Source: Komagataeibacter xylinus
GTDB lineage: Bacteria > Pseudomonadota > Alphaproteobacteria > Acetobacterales > Acetobacteraceae
NCBI RefSeq assembly: GCF_009834365.1
Contig: NZ_CP041348.1
Span: 528,001-592,000 of the forward strand
DNA: 64,000 nucleotides
Direction of reading: 5' to 3'
The notes beneath the pieces were generated by a model. It saw only the letters and a program-made list of their open reading frames with translations, did no database searches and was not told the origin of the DNA. The translations under genes and the position numbers were made by a program. This document shows, in pieces, positions 9,264 through 63,488 of the stretch; positions within the stretch are counted from its first letter, which is position 1, and every line of letters begins with the position of its first letter.

Positions 9264-9340
9264 GGTTTCTGGTGAAGCATTTTCCAGAAAGCTTTCAAGA
9301 ACACCGCCTTTTTGAAAAAAGGCGGCACCCAAAAAACTTT
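9264..9340 (+). repeat. Dispersed double-hairpin intergenic repeat, copy 1
   Basis: This copy lies between the htpG start and the Nudix gene stop. It has a first hairpin (GAAGC/GCTTTC), a second hairpin with perfect arms ACCGCCTTTTT and AAAAAGGCGG, and a right terminal segment CCCAAAAAACTTT. Plus orientation is defined as the GAAGC hairpin coming before the GCCGCC hairpin. Confidence 0.85.
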
Positions 9341-9374
9341 CATCATTTTTCCAATATATTGTTTTAAAACTGTT

Positions 9375-10004
9375 TTAATCAAAATCTGTGGGCAGGTCCG
9401 GGTTGGCTGCGTGTTCGAACATGCGGGTCAACTGGCCGGGCAGCACGCGGCCAAGCGAGAGCTCGGTGGGCAGTTGGTCTGCCGCAAACCAGCCAATCTC
9501 CGATGTCTCGATACTGGTCTCGGCACTGCCGCCGGTCAGTTCGCAGATGAAATAAAGCGTGCAGCACGAAAACGGTCCAGGCGGATGGCCCTGCCGGTCG
9601 CGGTCCCACACGGCGGCGAGCTTGGTCACGCGCACGCTAAACCCGCTTTCCTCGCGCACTTCCTTTACCGTGTTTTCCACCGGGGTCAGGTTCACATCCG
9701 CCCAGCCGCCCGGCAGGGTCCAGCGGTCATGGTCCAGCACCTCGCGCACCATCAGCATGCGGCCCTGCGCATCGAACACGGCGGCGCGCACCACCAGCTT
9801 GGGCGTGGCATAGCCGTCCTGAGTGCTGAACAGATCGAGCACGCGCGTCATGTCGGCATCGCTGCCCGTGGCCATCATGTCGGCTGCAATCTGCCTTATG
9901 CTTTCATAGCGTTCGCGGTCGAACGGGCTTTCGGCATAGGTCAGGCCACTCTGGGCCAGCGCCTGCAGGTCACGGGCCCAGATAAGCCATTGCGGGGTGG
10001 TCAT
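9375..10004 (-). CDS. Nudix hydrolase with N-terminal helical domain
   Basis: A 209-residue protein with two parts. Residues about 1-65 (LIWARDLQALAQSGLTYAE, then FDRERYESIRQIAADMM) match the helical domain found before some bacterial Nudix domains, including putative ADP-ribose pyrophosphatases. The Nudix domain follows, with the box LPGGWADVNLTPVENTVKEV then REESGF. The usual first Glu of the box is Leu here (NLTP), which is tolerated in this subfamily, and the metal-binding KEVREE core is intact. Substrate unknown. Its start overlaps the stop of the upstream cupin gene (ATGA), so the two are likely coupled. No partner pathway is apparent. Confidence 0.85.
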   Translation of the reverse strand: MTTPQWLIWARDLQALAQSGLTYAESPFDRERYESIRQIAADMMATGSDADMTRVLDLFSTQDGYATPKLVVRAAVFDAQGRMLMVREVLDHDRWTLPGGWADVNLTPVENTVKEVREESGFSVRVTKLAAVWDRDRQGHPPGPFSCCTLYFICELTGGSAETSIETSEIGWFAADQLPTELSLGRVLPGQLTRMFEHAANPDLPTDFD

Positions 10005-10480
10005 GCGTTGTCTCCTTGTGGCGTCCAGCCGGGCGGGGCCAGTTCAAACTGGCTGAAAACAAAGGCGGGCGCTACCTGGCAGCCCATCAGGCTCCAGGCG
10101 CCCCAGCTTTGAGCCGCCTGCCACACCCCCGGTGGCACCACCGCCTGCAGCACCTGCCCCTGTGCGGGCAGCGGGCCGAGCACGATCCGCTCGATCGGCG
10201 CGCCCTGCCGCGCTGCCATTTCAAGCACCAGCGGGCTGCCGCCCTGCCAGCACCAGATCTCGGCCGCATCAACACGGTGCCAGTGCGAACGCTCGCCCGC
10301 TGCCAGCAGGAAGTTGATGGTCGAGACCGCGCCACGCGGGCCATCGGCGGGAGTGTCGCGCCATATTTCGCGGTAGCTGCCGCCTTCGGGGTGGGGTTGC
10401 AGGCCCAGTAGCTGCCGCACGGTCGCGGCAGGGATGTTGGGGTCTCGCAAATCTGTCATGGGGGTTGTGGCTCCGGTCAT
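10001..10480 (-). CDS. Cupin superfamily protein (DUF985 type)
   Basis: The 159-residue protein resembles the DUF985 cupin family: RQLLGLQPHPEGGSYREIWRD near the N terminus, then SHWHRVDAAEIWCWQGGSPL, whose His and Glu residues would form the cupin metal or ligand site, and VVPPGVWQAAQSWGAWSLMG towards the C terminus. Function is unknown for the family. ATG 10480 has a GGAG nine bases upstream; ATG 10459 is an alternative. The longer open frame up to 10705 runs through a dispersed repeat and is rejected. The gene overlaps the Nudix gene by 4 bp. Confidence 0.85.
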   Translation of the reverse strand: MTGATTPMTDLRDPNIPAATVRQLLGLQPHPEGGSYREIWRDTPADGPRGAVSTINFLLAAGERSHWHRVDAAEIWCWQGGSPLVLEMAARQGAPIERIVLGPLPAQGQVLQAVVPPGVWQAAQSWGAWSLMGCQVAPAFVFSQFELAPPGWTPQGDNA

Positions 10481-10543
10481 GATCGCATGCTCCGGCGTAG
10501 CTCTCCTGCTACCGGGCTGCAAACGGCAGGCTGATGGAGAATA

Positions 10544-10622
10544 AAAGTTTTGGGGTGCCGCCTTTCTGCAAAAAGGCGGCATTCTTTGCAGCTTTTTGAA
10601 AAAAGCTTCACCAAAAACTTCT
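10544..10622 (-). repeat. Dispersed double-hairpin intergenic repeat, copy 2
   Basis: A full copy in minus orientation, 15 bp from the stop of the gene at 10638 and 64 bp upstream of the cupin start. The arms TGCCGCCTTT and AAAGGCGGCA form one hairpin, and AGCTTTTTGAAAAAAGCTT forms the other. Terminal segments are AAAAGTTTTGGGG and CACCAAAAACTTC. Confidence 0.88.
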
Positions 10623-10637
10623 TTGAGACATGACTGG

Positions 10638-11297
10638 TCAGCGGTCCTCATCTGTAAAAGCAAGGGTCTGATCAGTATAGGTTTCCACCACCTCGCTAAA
10701 GGCACGTCCCTGCCCGTCGCGCAGCACCGCGCGCTGGCGCACGATCTCGGCCGGGGTCACGATCATCGCCCTGCCCTGCCCCGCAGCCGGACCGGGCCAC
10801 GGCGACCACAGCCGCGCAAATTCCAGCCGCTCGCGGGTAAAATGCAGCGGCGCCACTACATGGCCGAAGGATGTGTCCGTCCCCTCCAGCGTGGCGTTCA
10901 TCTGTGGGGTCAGCAGGGCGGGCACATACCAGTTATCCGCAACCGAAAGCACATACGACCCGCAGGTCAGCCGCACCTGCCGGTGCTGCACGGGTTGCGT
11001 GGCACTCACGCCCAGATCAGCCCGCACCCGCGCGGGCACCAGGTCCGGTTGTGGCAGGGCCGCCTTCTGCGCCACGACCACAGGGCGGGTGGCCAAATGG
11101 TGGCTCGCACACCAGTCCTCCAGCGCCAGCGTGGCGCTGGAGTGGGTGAGCAGGGTTATTTCCAGTTCCTGCACGCTCATCATCAGGCGTGCGCGCATGC
11201 CTGGCGTATCGGGCCATGAGAGGCTGGCCGCCTGCACCGGACAGGCAGCCAGCAGCCCAGCCGCCATGATCGCTGCGCCCCGCAGCCCCCTGCCCAT
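10638..11297 (-). CDS. Secreted protein with chorismate lyase/UTRA-like features
   Basis: A 219-residue protein with an N-terminal signal peptide (cleavage probably after PVQAA). The second half, including TCGSYVLSVADNWYVPALL, EGTDTSFGHVVAPLHFTRE, RAVLRDGQGRAFSEVVETY, looks like the chorismate lyase/UTRA fold as found in uncharacterised acetic acid bacterial proteins. An enzymatic role is not established, and UbiC itself is cytoplasmic, so a different ligand is likely. It starts 11 bp after the bglxA stop, and the GAGG ribosome site overlaps that stop codon, so it is probably translated from the bglxA message. Fold assignment is inference. Confidence 0.6.
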   Translation of the reverse strand: MGRGLRGAAIMAAGLLAACPVQAASLSWPDTPGMRARLMMSVQELEITLLTHSSATLALEDWCASHHLATRPVVVAQKAALPQPDLVPARVRADLGVSATQPVQHRQVRLTCGSYVLSVADNWYVPALLTPQMNATLEGTDTSFGHVVAPLHFTRERLEFARLWSPWPGPAAGQGRAMIVTPAEIVRQRAVLRDGQGRAFSEVVETYTDQTLAFTDEDR

Positions 11298-11308
11298 CCT
11301 ATGCCACC

Positions 11309-13516: not shown

Positions 13517-13661
13517 GTGGCTGGCTTCTCCTTCAGGGGCTGGACAGTGACGGCACGGCGGCCTGCACCTGCCATTTGCTTGACCCATTTGTGAAGCACC
13601 CTGCCCCCGCGCCGCATGATCTAGCGCAAAAACAGGGCAAAGAGTGGGGGGCCAATACGCA

Positions 13662-13706
13662 AAAACCCTGCCTACAGGGCATGAACATGCCTGTGGGCAG
13701 GGTTTT
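13662..13706 (-). terminator. Terminator hairpin between bcsD and bglxA
   Basis: The outer arms AAAACCCTGCC and GGCAGGGTTTT pair perfectly over 11 bp. Inside them ACAGGGCATG and CATGCCTGT extend the stem with a small bulge. Read on the minus strand the hairpin ends in a run of five T, as expected for an intrinsic terminator of the bcs transcript. It lies 27 bp after the bcsD stop. Confidence 0.85.
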
Positions 13707-13732
13707 GACGCACATGGCGCGACTGACAGGAA

Positions 13733-27353: not shown

Positions 27354-27451
27354 CGTGCGTCTAGCAGAGTGATGATGCAACCCGCCCGGTCACAATGACG
27401 TTGAGCCGGATTACAGCTGCCCCCATCCCTCTGGTACAGGAGTCCGTTGCA

Positions 27452-28348
27452 ATGGCCTCTTCTGCTCTTATTTCCGGTCCCGAAAACAACCTGTCCAAAT
27501 ACCTTCGGGATATCCGCAAATTCCCCATGCTCTCCCCCGAGGAGGAACTTCGCCTTTCCCATCGCTGGAAGGACAAGGGCGACACCGAAGCCGCCCATAA
27601 GCTTGTCACCTCCCACCTGCGCCTCGTGGCCAAGATCGCCATGGGCTATCGCGGCTATGGTCTGCCGGTGGGCGAACTGATCAGCGAAGGCAATATCGGG
27701 ATGATGCAGGCCGTGCGCCGCTTCGACCCCGATCGGGGCTTCCGCCTGGCAACATATGCCATGTGGTGGATCCGTGCTGCGATACAGGAATACATCCTGC
27801 ATAGCTGGTCACTTGTGAAGATCGGCACAACCGCCGCCCAGAAAAAACTTTTCTTCAACCTGCGTCGCCTCAAGGGCCAGATGCAGGCAATTGATGATGG
27901 CGACCTCCAGCCCGAGCAGGTCAACAAAATCGCCCAGTCCCTCGGCGTGCCCGAGCAGGACGTGGTAAACATGAACCGCCGCCTCGCCGCACCCGACCAC
28001 AGCCTGAACGCGCCACTGCGCATGGATGGCGAGGGCGAGTGGCAGGACTGGCTGGTGGATGACAACGACAACCAGGAACAGACCCTTGCCGAGAGCGAGG
28101 AATATTCCGGCCGCCAGGCGCTTCTGGCCAATGCCATGAAGTCGCTCAACGACCGCGAGCGTCACATCCTGAGCGAGCGCAGGCTCAAGGATGAACCGGC
28201 TACACTTGAAGAGCTGTCGCATGTCTATAACATCTCACGCGAGCGGGTGCGCCAGATCGAGGTCCGCGCCTTTGAAAAGGTGCAGGCCGCAATGAAGGCC
28301 GAAGTCACCTCCCGCCGCGCCCGGCACGCTGAAGGGGCGGAAGCCTGA
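27452..28348 (+). CDS. rpoH: RNA polymerase heat-shock sigma factor RpoH (sigma-32)
   Basis: RpoH directs RNA polymerase to heat-shock promoters. The 298-residue protein from ATG 27452 has an AGGAG ribosome site nine bases upstream. Region 2 includes HLRLVAKIAMGYRGYGLPV and MWWIRAAIQEYILHSWSLVK. The RpoH box, QKKLFFNLRRLK, distinguishes it from other group sigma factors. Region 4 has the helix-turn-helix TLEELSHVYNISRERVRQIE. An in-frame ATG at 27395 is less likely because it lacks a ribosome site. A promoter-like element and structured leader lie upstream, and an intrinsic terminator follows at 28395. Confidence 0.95.
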   Translation: MASSALISGPENNLSKYLRDIRKFPMLSPEEELRLSHRWKDKGDTEAAHKLVTSHLRLVAKIAMGYRGYGLPVGELISEGNIGMMQAVRRFDPDRGFRLATYAMWWIRAAIQEYILHSWSLVKIGTTAAQKKLFFNLRRLKGQMQAIDDGDLQPEQVNKIAQSLGVPEQDVVNMNRRLAAPDHSLNAPLRMDGEGEWQDWLVDDNDNQEQTLAESEEYSGRQALLANAMKSLNDRERHILSERRLKDEPATLEELSHVYNISRERVRQIEVRAFEKVQAAMKAEVTSRRARHAEGAEA

Positions 28349-28352
28349 AATA

Positions 28353-28387
28353 AAGGCGGCGTTCTTCAGAAGCTTTACCAAAAACTT
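28353..28387 (-). repeat. Dispersed intergenic repeat, half copy 3
   Basis: A shortened copy in minus orientation starting 4 bp after rpoH. It keeps AAAGGCGGCGTTCTT, a collapsed AGAAGCTTTACC and the terminal CAAAAACTT, but lacks the left half of the GCCGCC hairpin. Confidence 0.7.
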
Positions 28388-28429: not shown

Positions 28430-28453
28430 TCTTTGAATCTTTTGGGAAATAAG

Positions 28454-28532
28454 AAGTTTTTTGGTGAAGCTTTTTTCCCAAAAGCTTCAAAGAAATGCCG
28501 CCCTCCGGAAAAAGGGCGGCACCCAAAAACGT
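28454..28532 (+). repeat. Dispersed double-hairpin intergenic repeat, copy 4
   Basis: A full copy in plus orientation that ends 14 bp before the purA stop. The second hairpin arms are GCCGCCCT and AGGGCGGC. Compared with the common arms, T to C on one side is matched by A to G on the other, so pairing is preserved. Terminal segments are AAGTTTTTTGGTG and CACCCAAAAAC. Confidence 0.88.
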
Positions 28533-28546
28533 CTATTGGACCCCGA

Positions 28547-29836
28547 TCAGTCCTCGAACGGGTCGCGCATCAGGATGGTATCATCACGCTCGGGGCTGGT
28601 GGAAAGCAGGGTCACCGGCGCCTCCACCAGTTCCTCGATGCGGCGCACGTATTTGATGGCCTGCGCGGGCAGCTCTGCCCAGGAGCGCGCGCCCTTCGTG
28701 CTGTCTTTCCAGCCTTCCATCGTCTCGAACACCGGGCGGATGCGCTGCTGCGCGCCGGGAGCCGAGGGGAAGTGCCTGGTGGTCTTGCCATCGAGCTCGT
28801 AGCCCACGCAGATGCTGATCTCGTCCAGCCCGTCCAGCACATCCAGCTTGGTCAGGGCCAGGCCATTCACGCCGCCCACACGCACCGCGCGGCGCACCAG
28901 CACGGCATCAAACCAGCCACAGCGGCGGGGGCGGCCCGTCACGGTGCCGAATTCATGCCCGCGCTCGCCAATGGTGCGCCCCATCTCATCATGCAGTTCG
29001 CTGGGAAACGGCCCCTCGCCCACGCGGGTGGTGTAGGCCTTGGCAATGCCCAGCACAAAGCCGATGCTCGTCGGCCCCACGCCAGCGCCGGTGCCCGCAT
29101 TGGCGGCAACGGTGTTTGATGAGGTCACGTACGGGTAGGTGCCGTGGTCCACATCCAGCATGACTGCCTGCGCGCCCTCGAACAGGATGCGCGAGCCGCC
29201 ACGGCGGCTGTCATCGAGCAGATCCCACACAGGCGCCATGAAGGGCAGCACGCGGGGGGCCACGGTGTTGAGGAAGTCGAGCAGTTCCTGCTTGGTGAAG
29301 GTCTCGGCACCCAGCCCCTTGAGCAGGGTGTTGTGGTGCAGCAGCAGTTCGTCGAGCTTCCAGTCCAGCGTTTCCGGCTCGGCCAGATCACACAGGCGGA
29401 TGGCGCGGCGGGCCACCTTGTCCTCATAGGCCGGGCCGATGCCACGCCCGGTGGTGCCGATCTTGCGCTCGCCACGGGCGGCTTCACGCGCGCGGTCGAG
29501 CGCGCCATGCACGGGCAGGATCAGGGGGGCGTTTTCTGCAATCTTCAGCGTCTCGGGCGTGACCTTGAGGCCCTGGGCGGTCACGCGGTCGATTTCCTTG
29601 AGCAGCGCCTCGGGGTCAACCACCACGCCATTGCCGATCACGCCCATCTTGCCGCGCACGAGGCCCGAGGGCAGCAGGGAGAGCTTGTAGGTCTGCTCGC
29701 CCACAACCAGCGTGTGACCCGCATTGTGGCCACCCTGAAAGCGCACGACCACATCGGCGCGGCTGGCCAGCCAGTCCACGATCTTTCCCTTGCCCTCGTC
29801 ACCCCACTGGGTGCCGATCACGGTGACGTTGGACAT
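28547..29836 (-). CDS. purA: Adenylosuccinate synthetase
   Basis: PurA makes adenylosuccinate from IMP, aspartate and GTP, the first committed step to AMP. The 429-residue protein starts at ATG 29836 behind an AAGGAG site. [15 protein letters not shown] carries the GTP-binding loop and catalytic Asp, [13 protein letters not shown] carries the catalytic His, and [18 protein letters not shown] and [10 protein letters not shown] are further signatures. The gene lies 90 bp downstream of hisZ on the same strand, a pairing seen in many alphaproteobacteria. Confidence 0.97.
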
Positions 29837-29926
29837 TTCATGCTCCTTGATATGCTGCCCGGCAGCCACTGCGCGGCCAGCCGGAAAAAACGGGGTCGGT
29901 TCAGAAAAAAGAAATCAGTGTAAACT

Positions 29927-34388: not shown

Positions 34389-34395
34389 AAATCAG

Positions 34396-34472
34396 AAGTT
34401 TTTGGTGACGCTTTTTTCAAAACGCTTCAAAAGAACGCCGCCTTTTTGAAAAAAGGCGGCACCCTGAAACTT
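34396..34472 (+). repeat. Dispersed double-hairpin intergenic repeat, copy 5
   Basis: A full plus-orientation copy fills the convergent gap between mazG and the gene ending at 34479. The second hairpin arms are perfect (GCCGCCTTTTT with AAAAAGGCGGC). The first hairpin has two mismatches (GACGC and CGCTTC). Terminal segments are AAGTTTTTGGTG and CACCCTGAAACTTT. Confidence 0.88.
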
Positions 34473-34478
34473 TCATCT

Positions 34479-35315: not shown

Positions 35316-35459
35316 TGCTGCCTCCGCCTCTGTCCGTTGTTTAACCCGTCATTCCTGCGCTGCCGGGCGCCACTTTTCCACCCCACGCGCCATCATGGCC
35401 GGCTCCCCCAAAAGCCCACCTGTGCGGCCCGTTTGGAAAGAATCCTGTAGTCATAAGGC

Positions 35460-35533
35460 AGTTTCCGGCGAAGCTTTCCGGGAAACGCTTCAGGAAATGC
35501 CGCCTTTTTGAAAAAAGACGGCCCCCTCAAACT
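35460..35533 (+). repeat. Dispersed intergenic repeat, degenerate copy 6
   Basis: A diverged plus-orientation copy 19 bp from the hflX stop. The GCCGCCTTTTT arm is intact, but its partner reads AAAAAGACGGC with one substitution, and the first hairpin and terminal segments have several changes (GTTTCCGGCG, CTCAAACTC). Confidence 0.75.
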
Positions 35534-35552
35534 CTCGCTTATTCTACAGTTC

Positions 35553-36863
35553 CTAATCGACCAGACAGGTCACGACACGACCGAACTGCATCTCGAAACG
35601 CGCACGGTTGGCGGGCGAAAGGCGCACGGTCATCTCGGCCCCTTCCTCCCCATCACTGCGCTCTGTCACCTCGCCGTGCTCATGCAGCCAGGCCATAGCC
35701 GCGCCCTCGGCGATGGGCACGCGATAACGCACCACTTCCATCGCGCGGGTCATGCGTTCATCGATTGCAGCCAGCAGATCAGGCAGGCCATCGCCAGTAA
35801 TGGCGGAAATGACCACGTTGCCCGGCCGCGCGCCCACGGCATCGCGCCCGCCCACCAGGTCGGCCTTGTTCAGCACCTCGATCACGCGGCCCTGCCAGTC
35901 GGCCTCGATCGTGCCGTTGCGCGCCATGCCCTCAAGCACCTCGATCACGTCATTGCGCTGGGATGCGCTATCGGGGTGCGAGACATCGCGCACATGCAGG
36001 ATGATGTCAGCCTCGGCCACCTCTTCGAGCGTCGCGCGGAATGCGGCGATGAGTTCGGTCGGCAGGTCGCTGATGAAGCCCACCGTATCGGACAGGATCA
36101 CCCGCCGCCCCGAGGGCAGCTGGATGCCGCGCATGGTGGGGTCCAGCGTTGCAAAAAGCTGGTCCTGCGCATACACGCTCGCCCCGGTCAGGGCGTTGAA
36201 CAGGGTGGATTTGCCCGCATTGGTGTAACCCACCAGCGCCACGATGGGGAACGGCACCCGCCTGCGCGCCTGCCGGTGGAGGCCGCGCGTGCGGCGCACC
36301 TGCTCAAGCTCGCGCTTGAGGCGCACGATCCGGTCGCCGATCATGCGGCGATCGGCCTCGATCTGCGTCTCGCCAGGGCCGCCGAGGAAGCCAAAGCCAC
36401 CGCGCTGGCGCTCAAGATGGGTCCAGGTGCGCACCAGCCGGCTGCGCTGGTATTCCAGATGGGCGAGTTCGACCTGCAGCGTGCCTTCACGCGTGGCCGC
36501 GCGCTCGCCAAAGATATCAAGGATCAGCGCGGTCCGGTCGATCACCTTGCAGCCCAGCGCGCGCTCAAGGTTGCGCTGCTGCACGGGCGTAAGCCGGGAA
36601 TCGATGATGACAACGGTAATGTTGTCGGCCTTGACCGTCTCTTTAAGCGAATCGACCTGTCCGCCGCCAAGCAGGGTGGCAGGGCGCCGGGCGCGCAGCA
36701 GCAGCACCGCCTGGCACACCACCACCAGCCCGATGGAGGCGGCAAGGCCTACCGCTTCCTCCAGCCGGGCTTCGGCCGCGCGGGCATCATCGTGCCGGTC
36801 GGGGCGCTCCCATGGCAGGATGACTGCGGCGCGCGTGGCGGATGAAGGCGCCGCCACCGTCAC
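35553..36863 (-). CDS. hflX: Ribosome-associated GTPase HflX
   Basis: HflX splits stalled or heat-damaged ribosomes. The 436-residue protein has the N-terminal HflX domain with [12 protein letters not shown] and [20 protein letters not shown], the linker [19 protein letters not shown], and the GTPase motifs G1 ([12 protein letters not shown]), G3 (LSDTVGFI) and G4 (LNKADL). The start overlaps the hfq stop (ATGA), so the conserved hfq-hflX pair is translationally coupled. The stop lies next to repeat copy 6. Confidence 0.97.
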
Positions 36864-44835: not shown

Positions 44836-46026
44836 ATGGCCGCATTGCTCCGCATCATGCGTGTTGCAGCCATTCTTCTCGCCGCGGGCCAGGGCAGCCG
44901 GTATAGCGCCCAGACCGCGACCCCCGTCGCCAAGCAGTATGTCACGCTCGGCGGCTGGCCCGTCATCCGCCACGCGGCGGATGCCCTTGCCCCTCATGTC
45001 GGCCTCATTCAGCCGGTAGGCGATCCAGCCCTGCTCGCCCGTGCGCTTGAAGGCTTTGCGCCTGAAAGCTGCGTCATCCTGCCCGTGGTGCCCGGTGGCG
45101 AGACCCGCCAGGCCAGCGTGCGCGCGGGGCTTGAGGCGCTTGACCGCCTGCCCGAGGCTGAGCGCCCCGACCTTGTGCTGATCCATGACGGCGCGCGACC
45201 TTACGTGCCCGCCAGCGTGACGCAGGGCGTGATCGCAGCGCTTGCCGAGCATGCGGGCGTGATCCCTGCCGTGCCGGTGGCCGATACCATCAAGCGCGCG
45301 AAGGATGGCATCATTACCGATACCGTGCCGCGCACCGACCTGTTCCGTGCCCAGACGCCGCAGGGCTTCCGCTTTGGCCTGCTGCGCGACCTGCACCGCG
45401 CGGCCGAAGCCGCCGACGCCACCGATGACGCCGCCCTGCTGGAAAACGCGGGCCACCCCGTGGCCATCGTGCCGGGGGCGGAAGACAACATCAAACTGAC
45501 CTACAAGGAGGATCTGGTGCGACTGGAACGCCTGATCGGCCCGACCCTGCTGCCGCGCACCGGCACGGGCTACGATGTGCATGCCTTTGCCGAGAACCGC
45601 CCGCTCATCATGTGCGGCATCAACGTGCCGCACACGCGCGGGCTTGCGGGCCACTCCGATGCGGATGTGGGCATCCATGCGCTGTGCGATGCCATTTATG
45701 GCGCTCTGGCCGAGGGCGATATCGGCCGCCACTTCCCGCCCAGCAAGAATGAATGGAAGGATGCCGACAGCGCGCGCTTCCTCGTGCATGCGGGCGAACG
45801 CATTCGCGCGCGCGGCGGCATGCTGGTCAATGCCGATGTGACGCTGATCTGCGAGCGCCCCAAGATCGGCCCGCATTCCGAGGCGATGCGCGCCCGCCTT
45901 GCCGAACTGCTCAAGGTTGATGTCGACCGCATCTCGGTCAAGGCCACCACCTCCGAGCGCCTCGGCTTTACCGGCCGCGAGGAAGGCATTGCCTGCCTGG
46001 CCAGCGCCACGGTGCTGGTGCCCTGA
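44836..46026 (+). CDS. ispDF: Bifunctional IspD/IspF enzyme of the MEP isoprenoid pathway
   Basis: The 396-residue fusion catalyses two non-consecutive MEP steps. The IspD part (about residues 1-225) makes CDP-methylerythritol and contains [23 protein letters not shown] and [20 protein letters not shown] [20 protein letters not shown]. The IspF part (from about 235) makes the cyclodiphosphate and contains GTGYDVHAF with the metal-binding Asp-His, [16 protein letters not shown] and [18 protein letters not shown] 44836 is given, but neither it nor ATG 44857 ([13 protein letters not shown]) has a clear ribosome site, so the start is uncertain. A repeat follows the stop. Confidence 0.95.
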
Positions 46027-46052
46027 GGCACGGATAAAACGGACAGTAAATG

Positions 46053-46127
46053 CTTTTTGGGCCGCCTTTATTTTAATAAAGGCGGCCTTTTTTGAAGCTT
46101 TTTGAAAAAGGCTTCACCAGAAACTTT
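46053..46127 (-). repeat. Dispersed double-hairpin intergenic repeat, copy 7
   Basis: A minus-orientation copy filling most of the convergent gap between ispDF and the ATP12 gene. The GC hairpin has longer arms than usual, GGCCGCCTTTAT and ATAAAGGCGGCC, with the extra pairs perfectly complementary. The second hairpin reads GAAGCTTTTTGAAAAAGGCTTC with one bulged G. Confidence 0.88.
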
Positions 46128-46143
46128 TATCATTAAGGTGGTT

Positions 46144-46905
46144 TCAAACTGCCCGGCAGAGCTGGAGAAAGCGCGCTGCATCCTCCACTTCCACCGCCTG
46201 CAGGCGCAGGGCTTCAAGCAGTTTCGCGTCCTCGCCCCAGATTTCCATCTGGCTGCGCTCATCCACGCTGGCAATCTCGGCCGCCCTGGCCGCGGGGAGT
46301 GCACCGGTCACCACCGCCAGCCCCAGCACGATGCTTTTCATTGCGGGCACCATCACCCCCAATGCGGCAAGGGTGGCGTTATCCATTTGCGTCAGCAGCG
46401 CCCGCCACGCGTCATGCACGGCGGGTGACTGCACGAGCGGCATGATGCCCGTCGTCACCGCCATGTCGATGTCATGACGCGCGCGCAGCCACGCAAGCTG
46501 CGGGTCCCATAACGCCTGCTGCTCGCGGCACAGGGGGGCAGGATAATCGGCGCGGTAGCACAGCAGTTCCCCATCCACGTAATGCAGCAGGGCCGCGACC
46601 TGTGCTGCGGGATCAGGGGCCACGCGCTCGATCATGGTGCCCGCGATGCGCGTCATGGGCAGGTCATCGGGCGTGAAATGACCGCCCTTTTCCCCACCTG
46701 CCTTCGCCCATTCATCGGCAATGGCCTGTGCCAGCGCGCGCGAGGGCACGCACAGCGCGGTGCCACCGGGCAGGCGGATGCCCCGCCCGTCGAGTTCCAC
46801 CGTAAAACCGCCACCGGCCACCGGGCTGATCGCGGCCGCGACCCAGAACCGCCTGCGCTTGCCTGCGGTCTGGGGCGTGGGGGGGCGTACGCCGTCCTTC
46901 ATCAT
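46144..46905 (-). CDS. ATP12-family F1-ATPase assembly chaperone
   Basis: A 253-residue protein of the ATP12 family, which in mitochondria binds the F1 alpha subunit during ATP synthase assembly; alphaproteobacteria carry homologues. Typical stretches are FTVELDGRGIRLPGGTAL, IADEWAKAGG and LPMTRIAGTMIERV, followed by YRADYPAPLCREQQALWDPQ. Start is ATG 46905 (46902 is possible). The start overlaps the asmA stop, so it is the last gene of the rarA-rluC-asmA-atp12 operon. No ATP synthase genes are nearby. Confidence 0.92.
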   Translation of the reverse strand: MMKDGVRPPTPQTAGKRRRFWVAAAISPVAGGGFTVELDGRGIRLPGGTALCVPSRALAQAIADEWAKAGGEKGGHFTPDDLPMTRIAGTMIERVAPDPAAQVAALLHYVDGELLCYRADYPAPLCREQQALWDPQLAWLRARHDIDMAVTTGIMPLVQSPAVHDAWRALLTQMDNATLAALGVMVPAMKSIVLGLAVVTGALPAARAAEIASVDERSQMEIWGEDAKLLEALRLQAVEVEDAARFLQLCRAV

Positions 46906-51782: not shown

Positions 51783-52105
51783 GTGCTCCTGCCTGTGCGT
51801 GGTGCAACCATGCCCTGATTATGGGCTGTATCTGCATAGATTGGGAAGCATCATGACCAATACCAGTCCCGGTTGCATGATACTGGCGTATGATATCTTG
51901 AAAAACGGGATCTTTTGAAGCTTTTTGGAAAAAGCTTCACCAAAAACTTTCTTTTGATTTTTAGCAGGTTTGGAGGCTGGTTTTAAAATTTCATGGATTG
52001 CGCAATGGGCAGCGTGAATATTGCAATAGATCCACAGAATAAAACGAATAAACGTTTTTGCATGCCACTTTTTTTTCAAACAGATGGCATTGGCTGCACA
52101 GGCTT
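51783..52105. other. Intergenic region upstream of rarA with repeat and short palindromes
   Basis: No gene was found. It contains half repeat copy 8 and two perfect short palindromes, ATTGCGCAAT (51997-52006) and ATTGCAAT (52020-52027). The part near 51960-52070 is AT-rich and could hold the rarA promoter on the minus strand. Confidence 0.5.
51909..51950 (-). repeat. Dispersed intergenic repeat, half copy 8
   Basis: A half copy in minus orientation, with the GAAGCTTTTTGGAAAAAGC hairpin and the terminal CACCAAAAACTTT, but without the GCCGCC hairpin. It lies 127 bp upstream of rarA. Confidence 0.72.
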
Positions 52106-53482
52106 TCAGAACTGGAAATAAATGAACGCTTCTGGCGGCCTGCCCCCCACCAGAAACACCAGCAGCACAAAGGCGATCCCCGCTACCACGGCCAGCCAGG
52201 GCGCAGGGCGCACGCGCTCCAGCACCACCTGCTGCGAGGCGGGGCCGATCACCGCAATGGCCAGCGCAAGGCCCAGCACCACGGGGTGCGCCACCACCAT
52301 GCTCCTGCCACCATAGGCGCCCAGCATCCCCGCCAGCACGTGCCCTGCCGTGGGCAGGTCGGCAGCGCGGAACACCACCCATGTCAGCAGCACGAAAAGC
52401 ATGGTCAACGCGTAGCCCACGCCGCGCGGCAGAACGCGCCCGGTGCGGTCCCACCCGTGGGCTGTGGCGAGGGCTGCGCCATGCAGCAGGCCCCAGACCA
52501 CGAAATTCCACCCTGCCCCGTGCCACAGCCCGGCCAGCCCCATGGTAACCATGACGTTCACCGCCTGCCGCGCGGGCGCGCAGCGGTTGCCACCTAGCGG
52601 GATATAGACGTAATCACGCAGAAAGCGTGACAGCGTCATGTGCCACCGCCGCCAGAAGTCACGCACCGATACGGCACGGTAAGGCGCATTGAAATTGAAT
52701 GGCAGGCGGATGCCCATCATCAGCGCCATGCCGATCGCCATGTCCGAATAGCCGGAAAAATCGAAATAGATCTGGAGCATGAAGCTGAGCGCTGCCAGCC
52801 ATGCCGCACCAAATGCGGGCGCGTGGCCCATATGGGCGGCCTCGAATACCGGCGTGCAGATGCTGCCCAGCGTATCGGCCAGCCCCACCTTCTTGCCCAG
52901 CCCCACCAGCAAAAGCAGGCCGCCCCGGCCAAGGTTCTCCCACATAGCGGGGCCGCGCGGGCTGGCATCGAACTGCGGAATCAGTTCGTTATGCCGCACG
53001 ATGGGGCCAGCCACGAGTTGCGGAAAGAAGGTTACGAACTCCACAAAATCCGCCAGCCGGTACACCCGCGCCTGCCCGCGCCCGAGGTCAACGAGGTAGG
53101 ATATTTTCTGGAACACGAAAAACGACAGCCCCAGCGGCAGGATCACTGACCACGGCGCAGGGGCACGGCCCATGGCGGCCAGCACGCAACCTGCCAGCCA
53201 GCCTGCGTATTTGAAGCCGAACAGCACCGCCAGATTGCCCGCAATGCCCAGCCACAGCCAGCCCCGCCACCGCGTGCGCCCCCATAATACGGCAATGCCC
53301 TGGCTGAAGCCGGTCATGCCCAGCAGCAGGGGCACGAACCGCCAGTCCCACAACCCGTAAAAGACAAGGGAGGCGGCAATGAGCACGGCCTGCCGCGCGG
53401 CCCTGCTGGCGGCTATGGCATAATACAGCCCCAGCACCACCGGCAGGAATAGGAGCAGGAAAGGCTGGGCCGCAAACAGCAT
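52106..53482 (-). CDS. MBOAT family membrane O-acyltransferase (AlgI/DltB-like)
   Basis: A 458-residue multi-pass membrane protein with about ten predicted helices. SFFVFQKISYLVDLGRGQAR, DFWRRWHMTLSRFLRDYVYI and the catalytic-His motif GLWHGAGWNFVVWGLLHG match AlgI-type MBOAT proteins that transfer acetyl groups to exported polysaccharides. The C terminus FIYFQF is typical of the family. The AlgJ/AlgX or SGNH partner usually encoded alongside is missing here, so its substrate is open. The start follows the stop of the flavoprotein gene with no gap, so it is the last gene of a tight three-gene operon. Confidence 0.9.
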   Translation of the reverse strand: MLFAAQPFLLLFLPVVLGLYYAIAASRAARQAVLIAASLVFYGLWDWRFVPLLLGMTGFSQGIAVLWGRTRWRGWLWLGIAGNLAVLFGFKYAGWLAGCVLAAMGRAPAPWSVILPLGLSFFVFQKISYLVDLGRGQARVYRLADFVEFVTFFPQLVAGPIVRHNELIPQFDASPRGPAMWENLGRGGLLLLVGLGKKVGLADTLGSICTPVFEAAHMGHAPAFGAAWLAALSFMLQIYFDFSGYSDMAIGMALMMGIRLPFNFNAPYRAVSVRDFWRRWHMTLSRFLRDYVYIPLGGNRCAPARQAVNVMVTMGLAGLWHGAGWNFVVWGLLHGAALATAHGWDRTGRVLPRGVGYALTMLFVLLTWVVFRAADLPTAGHVLAGMLGAYGGRSMVVAHPVVLGLALAIAVIGPASQQVVLERVRPAPWLAVVAGIAFVLLVFLVGGRPPEAFIYFQF

Positions 53483-55387: not shown

Positions 55388-55566
55388 GTTCCCGCTTTAT
55401 TGCATTGCCACGCCCTTCGCCAAGCCTTGAGTGCGCGCGCATGCCCGCATTGATGCAAAACCCGCCCTGCATGCCCTTAAAGAGTCAGGATTTCCTCGAC
55501 ACTCGCAGCCCGGCGCGGTAGCTGAAACAGACAGGCCCCATTGACCCAGAGCAGGACAGGAACACG

Positions 55567-56301: not shown

Positions 56302-56413
56302 GCTTTAACTCCCGCCCCCGTTGCGCTTCAGGCGCGCCCATCCATATTACAACCGTATCCATCAGGTCATGAACAAGAAAACACCCCCCAAAAGCGCACA
56401 AGGAACTACCCCC

Positions 56414-57504: not shown

Positions 57505-57528
57505 GGCGGCCCGAGGCAGCCCCGCCGG

Positions 57529-58203: not shown

Positions 58204-58243
58204 GCGCTTGAGTCATCCTTAATGCAAATAGGTCTTATTAATG

Positions 58244-58261
58244 CAGATCAATAATGATCTG
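58244..58261. promoter_or_regulatory. Candidate operator between gntR and bacterioferritin
   Basis: CAGATCA-ATAA-TGATCTG is a perfect 7-bp inverted repeat with a 4-bp spacer, about 40 bp upstream of the GntR gene start and 190 bp upstream of the bacterioferritin gene. TTAATGCA occurs twice just to its left. It is a plausible autoregulatory site for the GntR protein. Confidence 0.45.
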
Positions 58262-58450
58262 GCCGTGAATGGCAACGCCTGCACGGGCGAAAAACCTGCC
58301 TTACTGCTCATTTTCTTGGGTTTATGGGCGTTTTGTCATGAAAGGCAGGCCATTTGGGGGGAACCACGCGCTCTTTCGGTCCGTTACGCCTGCAACCCCT
58401 TCAATAGACCTGCCTCCTGTGCAGGCCACCACAATACAGGGAAACCCATC

Positions 58451-59017: not shown

Positions 59018-59140
59018 CCCGGCGCCCTGCCCCTGCTACTTTATACCCTGCGCGCATCCATCCTGCCCCATACCTCCGGGGGCGGGTAGTCTTGCCGCGC
59101 GCGTTATACTCCCCTGACCCGAACATGGAGAAACCGGACC

Positions 59141-60601
59141 ATGAACCAGATCATGTCCAAACCGAAAACCTACAACCTGTTCATTGGTGGTGAATGGAGC
59201 GCGCCCGGCACGCCCGAGCGTGACACCATCCACAACCCCGCCACTGGCGAGGTACTGGCCAAGGTGGCCGTCGCCAGCGAGGAAGATGTCAACCGCGCAC
59301 TACAGACCGCACAGAAGGCTTTCCCCGCATGGAGCAGGCTGGTTGCGACCGATCGGGCGGACTACCTGTACCGCCTGATCGAACTGATCAAACGCGACAG
59401 TGAAAAACTGGCCCGCATCATCACCTCCGAAAATGGCAAGCCGCTCAAGGAAGCCCGCATCGAGGTCAACTTCGCCATCCAGCTCATCCGCTTCGCCGCC
59501 GAGAATGTGCGCAGGCTTGAAGGCAACATCATTCCCGGCAGCCGCCCCGGCGAGAAAATCCTGATCGAGAAGATTCCCCACGGGGTGGTGGCAGGCATCT
59601 CGGCATGGAATTTTCCGCTTGCACTCACCGCGCGCAAGCTTGGCCCGGCCCTAGCTGCAGGCAACACATTCGTCATCAAGCCGCATGAACTGACACCGCT
59701 GGCCACTTTCGCACTGGCTGAACTCTCGGTCGAGGCGGGCTTCCCCAAAGGCGTGTTCAATGTCGTGACCGGCGGCGGCGCCACGGTGGGCAATGCGCTG
59801 GTGACCAATCCCATCACCAAGCTCATCACCATGACCGGCAGCACGCCCGCAGGCCGCAAGATCATGGCAGCTGCCTCGGAAGGGCTGAAGGAAGTGCGGC
59901 TTGAACTCGGCGGCAAGGCCCCATTCATCGTGATGGAGGATGCCGATATTGAAAAAGCGGTGGATGCTGCTGTTGCCGCACGCTTCATGAATTGCGGGCA
60001 GGTCTGCACGGCCAACGAGCGCACCTATGTGCACACCGCCGTATATGATGGATTCCTTAAACGCCTGCGTGAGAAGGTGGCCGCACTCAAGACCGGCAAC
60101 CCGCTTGATGAAGCCACCGACATGGGCCCCAAGATCAGCGCCGCCGAGCTCGAAAAGGTCGATGCGATCGTGCAGAAGGCCATCAAGCAGGGTGCGAAGG
60201 TCGAACTCGGCGCCAAGCGCCTGACTGGCGGCGCATATGACGCGGGCAACTTCTACGCCCCCACCCTGCTGACCGATGTCACGGCGGATATGGATATTGC
60301 GCAGAACGAAGTGTTCGGCCCCGTGCTGTCGCTGATCCGGGTGAAAGACTTCGATGATGCCATCGCCCAGGCCAACAACTCGCGCTATGGCCTGTCAGCC
60401 TACATGTTCACGCAGAACCTGAAGAACATCATGCGCATGACCAACGAGCTGAACTTTGGCGAGATCTATGTCAACCGTGAAGGTGGTGAAGCGGCACAGG
60501 GCTTCCACCACGGTTATGGCGATAGCGGCATTGGCGGCGAGGATGGCCAGTACGGGCTTGAAGCCTATGTCGATACCAAGACCGTCTATCTGAACGCATA
60601 A
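59141..60601 (+). CDS. aldA: NAD-dependent aldehyde dehydrogenase, AldA type
   Basis: The 486-residue enzyme resembles lactaldehyde/glycolaldehyde dehydrogenase AldA. Family landmarks are the NAD-binding MTGSTPAGRKIM, the general-base Glu in RLELGGKAPF, the catalytic Cys in RFMNCGQVCTANERT, and the C-terminal INREGG-type YVNREGGEAAQGFHHGYGDS, which is characteristic of AldA-like enzymes. Substrate is inferred from this resemblance; several small aldehydes are possible. A strong intrinsic terminator and a dispersed repeat follow. It converges on coaA. Confidence 0.9.
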   Translation: MNQIMSKPKTYNLFIGGEWSAPGTPERDTIHNPATGEVLAKVAVASEEDVNRALQTAQKAFPAWSRLVATDRADYLYRLIELIKRDSEKLARIITSENGKPLKEARIEVNFAIQLIRFAAENVRRLEGNIIPGSRPGEKILIEKIPHGVVAGISAWNFPLALTARKLGPALAAGNTFVIKPHELTPLATFALAELSVEAGFPKGVFNVVTGGGATVGNALVTNPITKLITMTGSTPAGRKIMAAASEGLKEVRLELGGKAPFIVMEDADIEKAVDAAVAARFMNCGQVCTANERTYVHTAVYDGFLKRLREKVAALKTGNPLDEATDMGPKISAAELEKVDAIVQKAIKQGAKVELGAKRLTGGAYDAGNFYAPTLLTDVTADMDIAQNEVFGPVLSLIRVKDFDDAIAQANNSRYGLSAYMFTQNLKNIMRMTNELNFGEIYVNREGGEAAQGFHHGYGDSGIGGEDGQYGLEAYVDTKTVYLNA

Positions 60602-60629
60602 GGCCTGGCAAACACACCCGAAGCCAGAG

Positions 60630-60656
60630 CGGCCCGGAGCAATCCGGGCCGTTTTT
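60630..60656 (+). terminator. Intrinsic terminator of aldA
   Basis: CGGCCCGGA and TCCGGGCCG form a perfect 9-bp stem with a GCAA tetraloop, followed by five T. It lies 28 bp past the aldA stop. Confidence 0.92.
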
Positions 60657-60693
60657 GTGTTGGCCTCCACGCCTGCGCCATCACGTAACGGAT

Positions 60694-60773
60694 AAAAGTT
60701 TCTGGTGAAGCTTTTTTCAAAAGCTTCAAAGAACGCCGCCTTTTTGAAAAAAGGGGACACCCAGAAACCTTTA
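60694..60773 (+). repeat. Dispersed double-hairpin intergenic repeat, copy 9
   Basis: A plus-orientation copy between aldA and coaA. The first hairpin (GAAGCTTTT with AAAAGCTTC) is perfect, while the second is partly broken because the right arm reads AAAAAAGGGGACA instead of AAAAAAGGCGGC. Terminal segments are AAAGTTTCTGGTG and CACCCAGAAACCTTT. Confidence 0.86.
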
Positions 60774-60792
60774 CTCTTTTAACAACCGTTTT

Positions 60793-61770
60793 TTAAATCT
60801 GGCGCATCCACACCGTATCGATCGCATGGCTAGGGCTTTTGTGCATGACCACGCGGGCGCGCTCGCGCGTGGGCAGGATGTTCTGCTGCAGGTTGGGCAG
60901 GTTGATGCGCCGCCAGATGTCGCGCGCAAGCTGCTCGGCCTCGCGTTCGGGCAGGTCGGCGTAATGGTGGAAATAGGATGTCGGCTTGCGGAAGGCGGTT
61001 TTCTGCAATAGCAGGAAGCGCCGGACGTACCAGTCCTCGATCACCCGCGTATCTGCATCGAGATAGATCGAGAAATCAAAGAAGTCGGACGCCATGAACG
61101 GCTGCTCGGACACGGTCTGGAGCACGTTCAGCCCCTCGAAGATCAGGATATCGGGCTGGTCGATCACCTGATGGCGGCCGGGAATGATGTCATAGGCCTC
61201 ATGCGAATAGACCGGCACCTTGAGGTTGCGCCCGCCCGCCTTCAGCGCTGAAAGGAAGCTGATCATCTGCCGCAGGTCATAACTTTCGGGGAAGCCCTTG
61301 CGGTGCATGAGGTTGCGCTTTTCCAGCTCGCGCGTGGGCAGCAGGAAGCCATCGGTCGTGACCAGCGCCACATTCGGGTGGTCGGGCCAGCGCGACAGCA
61401 CGGCCTGCAGCAGGCGGGCAAAGGTGCTCTTGCCCACCCCCACGCTGCCCGCGATGCCGATCACGAACGGCATGGTCACGCCCGGCCTGCCCATGAACGC
61501 GCTCTTGACCATGCTGTTCAGGCTGCGGGTGGCCATGACATGCAGGTTGAGCAGGCGCGACAGCGGCAGGTAAATCTCGGTTATGTCCTCGAGCGAGACC
61601 GGCTCGTTATGTCCGCGCAGCGTGGCGATATCGGCCTCGCCCAGTGATTGCGGCACATTGGCGCGCAGGGCCGCCCATTCGGGGCGGGGAAAGATCAGGT
61701 AAGGCTGCACCGGGCCGGGGGCCGGATGCGTGGAGATGACGGGACGCGCGTCCAGCATGCAGTCCTCCAT
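60793..61770 (-). CDS. coaA: Pantothenate kinase, type I
   Basis: CoaA phosphorylates pantothenate, the rate-controlling step of CoA synthesis. The 325-residue protein has the P-loop GIAGSVGVGKSTFARLLQ, VTTDGFLLPTRELEKRNLMH, HRKGFPESYDLRQMISFL, and DILIFEGLNVLQ, all typical of type I enzymes. ATG 61770 has AAGGA seven bases upstream; ATG 61758 has a GGAGG five bases upstream and is an equally good start. It converges on aldA and is divergent from the glycerate kinase gene. Confidence 0.95.
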   Translation of the reverse strand: MEDCMLDARPVISTHPAPGPVQPYLIFPRPEWAALRANVPQSLGEADIATLRGHNEPVSLEDITEIYLPLSRLLNLHVMATRSLNSMVKSAFMGRPGVTMPFVIGIAGSVGVGKSTFARLLQAVLSRWPDHPNVALVTTDGFLLPTRELEKRNLMHRKGFPESYDLRQMISFLSALKAGGRNLKVPVYSHEAYDIIPGRHQVIDQPDILIFEGLNVLQTVSEQPFMASDFFDFSIYLDADTRVIEDWYVRRFLLLQKTAFRKPTSYFHHYADLPEREAEQLARDIWRRINLPNLQQNILPTRERARVVMHKSPSHAIDTVWMRQI

Positions 61771-62061
61771 GCCCTTGTCCTTTCTGCTGTGGCAGTCTGC
61801 CCATGGGGGCAGGCCATCTGCCGCGTATCACCATCGCCTGCGCCAATCCAGAGATGGGCCGCCCAATTTAGCGTGTACGCCCTCCACAACCCGCCGCATT
61901 CCGCCCATCCTGACACAGACGTGACAATTGTGACACACCGCGCCATGCTGCATGAATGGTATGGACCCCACCGCGCCTCCACCGGGCATCCCGCCCGCAG
62001 GCAGGCCATCCGCCCCATGGCGGCTCATATGCCGCGCCACGCCAATGACAGGGATAGCGTC

Positions 62062-63387
62062 ATGAACGACCCGACCATCCACCCGTTTTCCGCCGCTCCC
62101 CGGCAGAGCATGCCTGCGGACTGGACGGACGGGCACGCCCGCGCCACCCTGCGCCGCATTCTTGATTCCGCTATCCACAGTGCCCTGCCCGCTCAGGTGC
62201 TGGAGCGCTACCTGCCTTCAAAGCCAAAGGGCCGGTGCATTGTGGTGGGCGCAGGCAAGGCGGCGGCAACCATGGCAGCCGCCCTTGAACGCGCCTGGCC
62301 GGATGTGGAAATGAGCGGCTGCGTGGTCACGCGCGATGGACACGCCGCACCCACACAGCGCATCCGCGTGCTGGAAGCCGCCCATCCCGTGCCCGACGAC
62401 CGCAGCGTGGCCGCAGGCCACGCCATGATGGCGGAAGTAGCCGGTCTGGGGCCTGATGACCTGGTCATCGCACTGATTTCCGGTGGTGGATCAGCGCTGC
62501 TGGAGTTGCCCAAAGCGGGCGTGACGCTCGATGACCTGCGCACCATCAACCGCGCCCTGCTGCATAGCGGGGCCAGCATACGCGACATGAACGTGGTGCG
62601 GCGCCACCTCTCGGCGATCAAGGGCGGCGGGCTGGCCGCGGCCGCCTGCCCTGCCCGGGTCGTGACACTGGCCATAAGCGACGTGCCGGGCGATGACCCG
62701 CTGACCATCGCGAGCGGCCCTACGATGGCGGACCCCACCACACCCGCCGACGCGCGCGCCATCATTGCCCATTACGGCATTGCCCTGCCCGAAGCCGCCC
62801 GGAACGTGCTGGAACACGATGCCGGGCCGATGGTGCTTTCGCCTGCCAATCAGGTCACGTTGATCGCAACGCCACTGATGGCGCTGCAGGCGGCAGCCAG
62901 CATGGCACGCGAATGCGGCCTGACGCCGCTGATTCTGGGGGATGCGCTGGAGGGCGAAAGCCGTGATGCCGGCACGCTCATGGCTGGCATTGCCCTGTCG
63001 GCCCGGCTGCATGGCCTGCCCGTGGCGGGGCCCGCCGTGCTGCTTTCGGGCGGCGAGACGACGGTCAGCATCAACCCGGCCGGTCCCGCGCCGGGGCGGG
63101 GCGGGCGCAATACCGAGTTCCTGCTCTCCATGGCCTGCGCCCTGCAGGGGCAAGCGGGCATCTGGGCCATTGCAGCGGATAGCGACGGTATTGATGGCAC
63201 GGAGGACGCGGCGGGTGCGATCATCACCCCCGACACGCTGGCCCGCGCCGAAGCCGCAGGCTGCAACCCGCGCGCCGCCCTGCGCGCGCATGACAGTTAC
63301 ACGGTGTTCCGACAGACGGGCGATCTGGTCATGACCGGTCCCACCCTGACCAATGTGAACGATATCCGGGCCGTGCTGGTGCTGTAA
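62062..63387 (+). CDS. Glycerate 2-kinase (type-2/MOFRL family)
   Basis: A 441-residue member of the DUF4147/MOFRL family, which phosphorylates glycerate to 2-phosphoglycerate; older annotation as hydroxypyruvate reductase also occurs. The start ATG 62062 (AGGGA upstream) precedes CIVVGAGKAAATMAAALERA, the catalytic-region ALISGGGSALLELPKAGVTL, and the C-terminal MOFRL region GPAPGRGGRNTEFLLSMA with DSDGIDGTEDAAGAI. The frame stays open upstream to 61648, but that part lacks family similarity. The 291-bp upstream gap includes the near palindrome GTGACAATTGTGAC. Confidence 0.9.
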   Translation: MNDPTIHPFSAAPRQSMPADWTDGHARATLRRILDSAIHSALPAQVLERYLPSKPKGRCIVVGAGKAAATMAAALERAWPDVEMSGCVVTRDGHAAPTQRIRVLEAAHPVPDDRSVAAGHAMMAEVAGLGPDDLVIALISGGGSALLELPKAGVTLDDLRTINRALLHSGASIRDMNVVRRHLSAIKGGGLAAAACPARVVTLAISDVPGDDPLTIASGPTMADPTTPADARAIIAHYGIALPEAARNVLEHDAGPMVLSPANQVTLIATPLMALQAAASMARECGLTPLILGDALEGESRDAGTLMAGIALSARLHGLPVAGPAVLLSGGETTVSINPAGPAPGRGGRNTEFLLSMACALQGQAGIWAIAADSDGIDGTEDAAGAIITPDTLARAEAAGCNPRAALRAHDSYTVFRQTGDLVMTGPTLTNVNDIRAVLVL

Positions 63388-63408
63388 GAGCGTATCTGGA
63401 AAACAATA

Positions 63409-63488
63409 TAAAGTTTTCAGGCGCTGCATTTTTTCAAAAAGGCAGCGTTCTTTAAAGCTTTTTGAAAAAAGCCTTACCAAAAACTTCT
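63409..63488 (-). repeat. Dispersed double-hairpin intergenic repeat, copy 10
   Basis: A minus-orientation copy in the convergent gap between the glycerate kinase and the lipoprotein. The second hairpin has CGCTGC and GCAGCG in place of CCGCC and GGCGG: the changes on the two arms are compensatory. Terminal segments are AAAGTTTTCAGG and CCAAAAACTTC. Confidence 0.87.

Follow-up and report, generated by a model that had tools for sequence, protein, structure and literature searches.

The 64,000-nucleotide stretch analysed here (the window; Komagataeibacter xylinus GCF_009834365.1, contig NZ_CP041348.1, positions 528,001 to 592,000) carries ten copies of a palindromic repeat of 77–79 bp. These repeats are very probably the retained cores of a miniature inverted-repeat transposable element (MITE), since the unit corresponds to the middle part of an element of 161–165 bp in relatives. 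The overall explanation, to which a probability of about 0.75 is assigned, is that MITE copies settled behind genes, lost their arms and kept a core that would serve as a two-way structure at transcript 3′ ends. All ten copies listed by a first-pass annotation were present, eight in full length and two as halves (Table 1). The full copies scored 71–97 bits with a covariance model built from these same eight, and the halves were detected with nhmmer. In the following, the 3.98-Mb K. xylinus genome is called the window genome, G-numbers denote the other genomes compared and L-numbers denote fetched sequence stretches.

The longer element was first evident from the comparison of orthologous sites in relatives. 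From left to right it consists of a 15-bp terminal inverted repeat (GAGACTGTTTGAAAA), an arm of about 30 bp, the core of 79 bp, a second arm of about 24 bp and, at the far end, the terminal repeat once more. The core is an inner inverted repeat around two hairpins, an arrangement that the first-pass annotation had described correctly. It had also taken AAGTTTTTGGTG and CACCAAAAACTT for the ends of the element, which was wrong: both are inner repeats, and the real outer ends lie about 45 bp to the left and 39 bp to the right. When the 150-bp flanks of 172 cores were scanned for the outer motif with at most two mismatches, it was found to the left of eight (43–46 bp away) and to the right of ten (28–39 bp away). 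Exact outer repeats occurred in 18 of 19 genomes of the genus. At least 21 facing pairs of outer repeats were listed, with starts 146–150 bp apart, and 19 were fetched. These 19 full elements had lengths of 161–165 bp; their perfect 15-bp ends are a consequence of the exact-match search. Identical 3-bp flanks indicated a target duplication in 18 of the 19. Flanks of the form TNA were present in 17, and the other two elements were flanked by ATA/ATA and TCG/TTA. The TNA duplications of the family comprise TTA, TAA, TGA and TCA. One copy of the window genome, L024, showed decayed outer ends between TCA/TCA flanks. The left arms of the full elements (L238–L256) were of two types around nearly the same core, as if arms had been exchanged.

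An exact pair of filled and empty sites was found on plasmids. L255 was filled, and L328 and L329, representing K. medellinensis pGXY010 and K. xylinus pGX5, were empty. The joined flanks of L255 aligned gaplessly with the two empty plasmids, with 193 and 195 of 197 bases identical. The duplicated TTA at this site is the TAA stop, on the other strand, of a DotG/VirB10-family gene. Among 22 places with young full-length copies, the duplicated bases were the called stop codon of the neighbouring gene in six, two of which (L255 and L256) represent one site. Insertion sometimes occurs exactly at a stop codon; the stop bases TAA and TGA are themselves of the form TNA. The same plasmid insertion was also present in Novacetimonas hansenii p1 (L330:1501-2747), with an IS630-family transposase gene adjoining. 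Three nearly intact MITEs were located within 5 kb in L237 (454-614, 4044-4204 and 4928-5089). Two of them flanked a small open reading frame (ORF) that contains CxxCH and, on visual inspection, resembles a cytochrome c; in principle, such a set could move as a composite. In G134, a 1046-bp candidate insertion sequence (IS) bounded by two outer repeats proved to be two MITEs around other genes and was rejected.

Three larger elements shared like ends and TNA duplications with the MITE: 2,704 bp in G060 (TGA), 3,338 bp in G134 (TTA) and 3,627 bp in G131 (TTA). The transposase of each matched NF033580, IS5 family. Agreement with the MITE ends, judged by eye, was 16 of 17 positions in G060 and G131 and 18 and 19 of 20 in G134. 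The G060 element also encoded a bPH_2-domain protein and small ORFs, and one of the three held a second IS5-type transposase inside. A best-match scan for ends pointed to L265 and L266; scans for a partner IS with fixed end spacing and duplication returned none among 257 sequences or 30 transposase loci. Because ends and target match, the element is most likely mobilised in trans by IS5-family transposases. In the congener G131, 63 DUF4096-type transposase matches were detected, many of equal score, which represents an IS5-family expansion. The first-pass annotation had likened the repeats to repetitive extragenic palindromes (REPs) or MITEs. Only the second likeness held, with a 162-bp element, inverted ends, TNA duplications, an empty site and IS5-family partners in its favour. 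No match to a REP-associated tyrosine transposase (RAYT) was obtained in the window genome. Given IS5-family transposons with almost identical ends and likewise TNA duplications, the family is a MITE and not a RAYT-type REP.

Arms and core were retained to different degrees. For 53 full cores of the window genome, identity to the consensus was 0.89 in the core, 0.615 in the left arm (0.584 when shuffled) and 0.599 in the right arm (0.537 when shuffled). Both arms were kept at 0.7 or more in one of the 53 copies and at least one arm in eight. Position by position, about nine inner arm bases stood out, with 0.58 on the right and 0.39 on the left against 0.25–0.30. The kept edges comprise some 10–11 bases each, T-rich to the right of the core and A-rich to the left. 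With at most one mismatch, the outer repeat occurred four times in the window genome, each time beside a listed core, and no outer end without an adjoining core was seen genome-wide at this threshold. Ortholog cores were 0.84 identical, compared with 0.68 for the adjacent intergenic DNA and 0.80 for random paralogs. In 22 of 24 ortholog pairs, the core was more similar than the intergenic DNA beside it.

The family is abundant beyond the window. A covariance-model scan, which the first-pass annotation had proposed, found at least 150 copies in the window genome, all of those listed on contig C1, so enrichment extends outside the window; this number is a floor, as 150 of 1350 first-look candidates were scored. 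In a search made without the model, the initial 25 bases of the hairpin-1 core, with up to three mismatches allowed, occurred 144 times in the window genome, and the reversed-pattern control gave none. The model listing placed copies on both strands throughout the chromosome, and an apparent strand bias along it was dropped on this basis. The density of the 150 listed copies on C1 was uneven, with 26–28 per 300 kb around 0.9–1.5 Mb, 2–8 beyond 2.1 Mb and three in the first 300 kb. Matches at E 1e-6 were obtained in 12 of 120 genomes drawn from Acetobacteraceae. Among these 120, scores above 90 bits were reached in the window genome, one congener (G060) and one genome of another genus (G073). 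A scan for an exact 25-mer found at least 120 stretches, and the 80 matches listed all belonged to Komagataeibacter, Novacetimonas, Acetobacter, Gluconobacter or Gluconacetobacter entanii. The repeat family is present in several genera of acetic acid bacteria. Weak model matches in other Acetobacteraceae (G020, G080, G111 and G119), in G020 on both strands of one place, perhaps represent unrelated palindromic families. The core was also found in four viral contigs (L151, L152, L153 and L154). One L151 copy was absent at the corresponding position of L152 and L153, where the gaps measured 11 and 19 bp versus 147 and 146; such a difference would be consistent with movement into phage DNA. A search of an open-access literature library, covering listed titles and abstracts and selected passages, showed no description of the repeat family; the available part of PMC4686929 names MITEs and REPs merely as general terms.

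The location of the copies at gene 3′ ends, several of them in convergent gaps, had been pointed out in the first-pass annotation and was more pronounced than stated there. In the window, six copies were placed in five convergent gaps and four in codirectional gaps adjoining the stop of the upstream gene; divergent gaps held none. Placement was then counted for 86 copies in 464 kb of the window genome, partly chosen from copy-dense parts and annotated with a home-made gene caller: none was in a called gene, 47 were convergent, 35 codirectional and four divergent, with the copy at 34396 counted as codirectional though convergent, as the caller missed a mazG-like gene. Convergent gaps made up 17% and divergent gaps 29% of the free intergenic length (binomial p 4e-15 for the convergent excess and 1.5e-8 for the divergent deficit). 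A stop codon was within 60 bp of 44 of the 47 convergent copies. Among the 35 codirectional copies, 28 were at most 60 bp from the upstream stop, 31 were nearer to it than to the next start, and 15 had the same and 20 the opposite orientation relative to transcription. Convergent gaps of at least 60 bp were occupied in 43 of 53 cases in the window genome (ten shorter gaps in its stretches were left out), 29 of 38 in G132, 9 of 16 in G131, 7 of 14 in G060, where the stretch was picked after matches had been seen there, 6 of 6 in G136, 5 of 6 in G135 and 4 of 6 in G125. Occupancy of divergent gaps was 4/55, 2/35, 0/23, 0/24, 0/9, 0/10 and 0/9 in the same order. The 22 places with young full-length copies comprised ten convergent, six codirectional and six contig-edge positions, with none in divergent gaps or in genes.

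The first-pass annotation had suggested that the unit can fold like a three-way junction. Such a fold is possible, and part of the comparative evidence agrees with it. In an alignment of 49 copies, one truncated copy of the 50 listed being left out, 89.4% of pair cells held standard pairs. Two-sided changes were seen in 26 cells, compared with 13.4 in shuffled alignments (reached in 0 of 500 shuffles), and in 13 pairs, compared with 7.2 (1 of 500); the tested structure was derived from the same repeat family, which favours a good fit. Covariation could also arise by palindrome-correcting template switching. Other parts of the evidence, the RNAalifold consensus and the wobble counts given below, left the fold unrecovered and RNA-level selection unsupported. 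Rfam gave no match above the gathering score at the copies; its only hits in the window were two tRNAs, and the best weak match at one core reached 13.4 bits against 44. With respect to intrinsic terminators, the T-rich edge extends over about 11 bases to the right of the core and the A-rich edge lies to the left, and the outer stem is AU-rich, not GC-rich.

Sites were widely shared between genomes. All 19 genus genomes gave a core match at site 28454 (E up to 0.1), some of the matches being partial, with flank identities as low as 84%. Site 34396 was matched in 16 of 19, with 12 copies in the same and four in the opposite orientation. The comparison of site occupancy between strains, proposed earlier in the first-pass annotation, gave the same orientation in 51 of 68 comparisons with close relatives, only the opposite orientation in nine and no copy in eight. 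In a second region compared with G132, these classes held 18, six and three of 27 sites. Opposite orientations at shared sites may result from re-insertion or from in-place inversion. At site 63411, G136 carried a flipped fresh copy with arms beside an old remnant; this copy is a new insertion. It is possible, though somewhat doubtful, that opposite orientations at shared sites arise mainly through inversion of the core in place, with template switching at the palindrome acting between the inner inverted repeats. At 34396, and likewise at position 87563 of the stretch starting at C1:820001, similarity of the flanks extended as far as the inner repeat, and the flipped 34396 core of G134 was more similar to its ortholog than were 92% of paralogs. 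Six of nine flipped pairs were testable in this way. The other five ranked at 0.06–0.54 among paralogs, and 27 same-orientation pairs averaged 0.72; this difference speaks against inversion, as does the fresh-armed copy in G136. In three of these five the window-genome copy is truncated, which by itself lowers the rank, so that the rank test is weak. Because of these three truncated copies, re-insertion as a general cause of orientation differences is weaker than it first appeared.

The following course of events would account for the observations. The MITE is most likely moved in trans by IS5-family transposases; it inserts with a TNA duplication, sometimes exactly at a stop codon. Copies sit after genes, with none in called genes of the window genome and few between divergent genes. 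After insertion, as seen in the window genome, the arms erode, and the core with its A-rich left edge and T-rich right edge persists. The orientation has changed by new insertion at one shared site and may have changed by re-insertion or in-place inversion elsewhere. The persisting core would form a symmetric, orientation-independent 3′-end structure, either a bidirectional terminator or a protector of transcript ends, chiefly between convergent genes. A two-way terminator role would fit because the build is symmetric, orientation is unbiased, the edges are T-rich and convergent gaps are highly occupied. We infer from these sequence features that a terminator-like structure working in both directions is what the retained, trimmed core provides; the chances that the core is retained for a function at all appear evenly balanced. 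A more far-reaching proposal is genome-wide domestication, in which the symmetric core, found in most convergent gaps, would be the main bidirectional transcription terminator of Komagataeibacter, with the ends required for mobility lost and decayed cores replaced by fresh insertions. This proposal is possible, though less likely than not.

Several results weigh against the explanation by retained MITE cores. The composition of the 464-kb placement sample and its gene caller, described above, are among them, and one of 43 copies in G132 was located inside a called gene. The 3′-end bias arises as early as insertion and the first purging: genes and promoters are already avoided by young insertions, so that much of it is explained by insertion into safe havens alone. 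If cores substituted for terminators, canonical terminators should be rarer in occupied gaps. The opposite was found for convergent gaps of the window genome (9 of 43 occupied versus 1 of 10 empty) and of G132 (7 of 29 versus 1 of 9). G131 showed 2 of 9 versus 2 of 7, and G060, with 1 of 7 versus 5 of 7, counted in favour of substitution; across genomes the evidence is mixed. The RNAalifold consensus of the 49 copies comprised five pairs only and did not recover the proposed fold. G-U pairs (86) showed little excess over A-C mismatches (75), and for 22 codirectional copies, counted along the transcribed strand, the numbers were 44 and 36, so that no selection on the RNA strand was seen in either count. 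The wobble result gives a role as terminator or end protector no support. Site 35460 was matched in only six of 19 genus genomes, or seven with a G136 copy found separately. The identity of ortholog cores (0.84) was barely above that of random paralogs (0.80). The core hidden Markov model favours well-kept cores, and arms of unknown or older subfamilies may differ from the arm consensus, which bears on the contrast between core (0.89) and arm identities; the outer 15 bp should still be recognisable. Transposase relatives at E 1e-60 or better were present in five of 19 genus genomes and were detected neither in the window genome nor in G133, the richest genome in intact copies. In two of the five transposase-bearing genomes, G125 and G127, no matching end pair was seen in the fetched flanks.

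Some of these points would be expected if cores persisted by chance without function, the MITE landing at TNA, often at or beside stops, and copies elsewhere being purged. The coincidence of duplicated TAA or TGA bases with stop codons at six of 22 young places, the same 3′-end placement of young insertions, the lack of a clear wobble preference between G-U and A-C and the location of some copies beside canonical terminators are consistent with such neutral persistence. Arms and core that entered together should then decay alike, yet the cores remain at 0.89 of the consensus and the arms near the shuffled baseline. All four outer repeats of the window genome adjoin a core, whereas cores number at least 150, and the core match at site 28454 across all 19 genus genomes also argues for retention. 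Neutral persistence alone is possible and would be the less expected outcome.

The origin of the core could also have been different. An older, separate REP-like repeat of 79–100 bp might have spread by itself and been captured later inside an IS5-type MITE; core-only copies outnumber intact elements in the window genome, and the two left-arm types surround nearly the same core. Such a repeat is unlikely, given that direct repeats of 3 bp were not in strong excess at any fixed distance from the core (no more than 8 of 53, and then within the AT-rich edge), that the roughly nine inner arm bases are partly retained, that a left outer end with two mismatches flanks a core in Acetobacter musti (L039) and that no RAYT was matched in the window genome. 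A classical family of REPs or bacterial interspersed mosaic elements (BIMEs) spread by a RAYT (Y1) transposase would share the palindromic build, the intergenic position near 3′ ends and the more than 100 copies, and is nevertheless extremely improbable. PF01797 had no match in the window genome, to which this search was confined apart from 14 control genomes, of which five matched. The consensus of the 49 copies contained no GTAG or CGTC tag on either strand, and TNA duplications and DDE-type partner transposases were found instead. The available part of a survey of tagged REPs likewise reports CGTC repeats as missing in Acetobacteraceae (PMC3733652).

Table 1. Repeat copies in the window and partner transposons in other genomes; the three partner transposons measure 2.7–3.6 kb and contain further ORFs.
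Feature	Sequence	Coordinates	Strand	Context
Full core copy	Window	9261..9339	+	Codirectional gap, just beyond 3′ end of Nudix gene (9375-10004 -); arms 0.69 and 0.71 of consensus
Full core copy	Window	10544..10622	-	Codirectional gap, beyond 3′ end of gene 10638-11297 - (no Pfam match)
Half copy	Window	28351..28386	-	Directly past stop of sigma-70-family gene (27395-28348 +); nhmmer 17.7 bits
Full core copy	Window	28453..28529	+	Convergent gap, between GC-rich hairpin with T run and end of adenylosuccinate synthetase gene (28547-29869 -)
Full core copy	Window	34394..34473	+	Occupies whole convergent gap between mazG-like gene (stop 34388) and inositol monophosphatase-family gene (stop 34479)
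Full but diverged core copy	Window	35457..35535	+	Beyond 3′ end of hflX-like gene (35553-36863 -)
Full core copy	Window	46050..46128	-	Convergent gap between IspD/IspF fusion gene (44836-46026 +) and ATP12-like gene (46144-46905 -)
Half copy, hairpin 1 side	Window	51897..51950	-	Codirectional gap beyond 3′ end of MBOAT gene (52106-53482 -); nhmmer 35.3 bits
Full core copy	Window	60694..60771	+	Convergent gap between aldehyde dehydrogenase gene (59141-60601 +) and PRK-family gene (60793-61770 -)
Full core copy	Window	63410..63488	-	Convergent gap between MOFRL/DUF4147 gene (ends 63387 +) and end of called gene 63499-63879 - (no Pfam match)
Partner transposon	L265 / L293	3534-6238		
Partner transposon	L292	3861-7199		
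Partner transposon	L327	7001-10628		

Cores fill most of the convergent gaps examined, and the genus has uses in making bacterial cellulose and vinegar. Should the core terminate transcription, Komagataeibacter would rely on a transposon-derived terminator. A target site resembling a stop codon would then show how a parasite can insert harmlessly and turn useful later. The copies in the window genome, at least 150 in number, form a natural set for testing the function of the core.

Among known systems, REPs and BIMEs with RAYT are likewise palindromic, extragenic and present in high copy number. The repeats described here differ from them in their length of about 79 bp, the two hairpins, the missing GTAG or CGTC tag and the lack of a Y1 transposase in the window genome. 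The CIR repeat of Caulobacter and Brucella is also alphaproteobacterial, and each of its two sections forms a stem-loop in an RNA model; in the available part of PMC2229807, its table entry gives no terminal repeat and an unknown duplication, a comparison by description, not by sequence. Correia/NEMIS elements of Neisseria and ERIC elements of enterobacteria are MITEs of about 100–200 bp, A+T-rich, with a target duplication and structured transcripts, and the same table lists TA at their termini (PMC2229807, available part). The present element has a TNA duplication and other ends, and is set apart from them by description, not by sequence. It is also placed at 3′ ends, chiefly of convergent genes. 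The closest likeness is to IS5-family MITEs, which are short and non-coding, with terminal inverted repeats, a 3-bp TNA duplication and, in this genus, an IS5-family partner transposase. The ends of such MITEs are of the IS1031/IS12528 type. The three partners found here are elements of 2.7–3.6 kb with other ORFs and thus no simple ISs. MITEs are usually described as intact mobile units; in most of the window-genome copies examined here, the mobile ends have vanished and the palindromic core alone survives.

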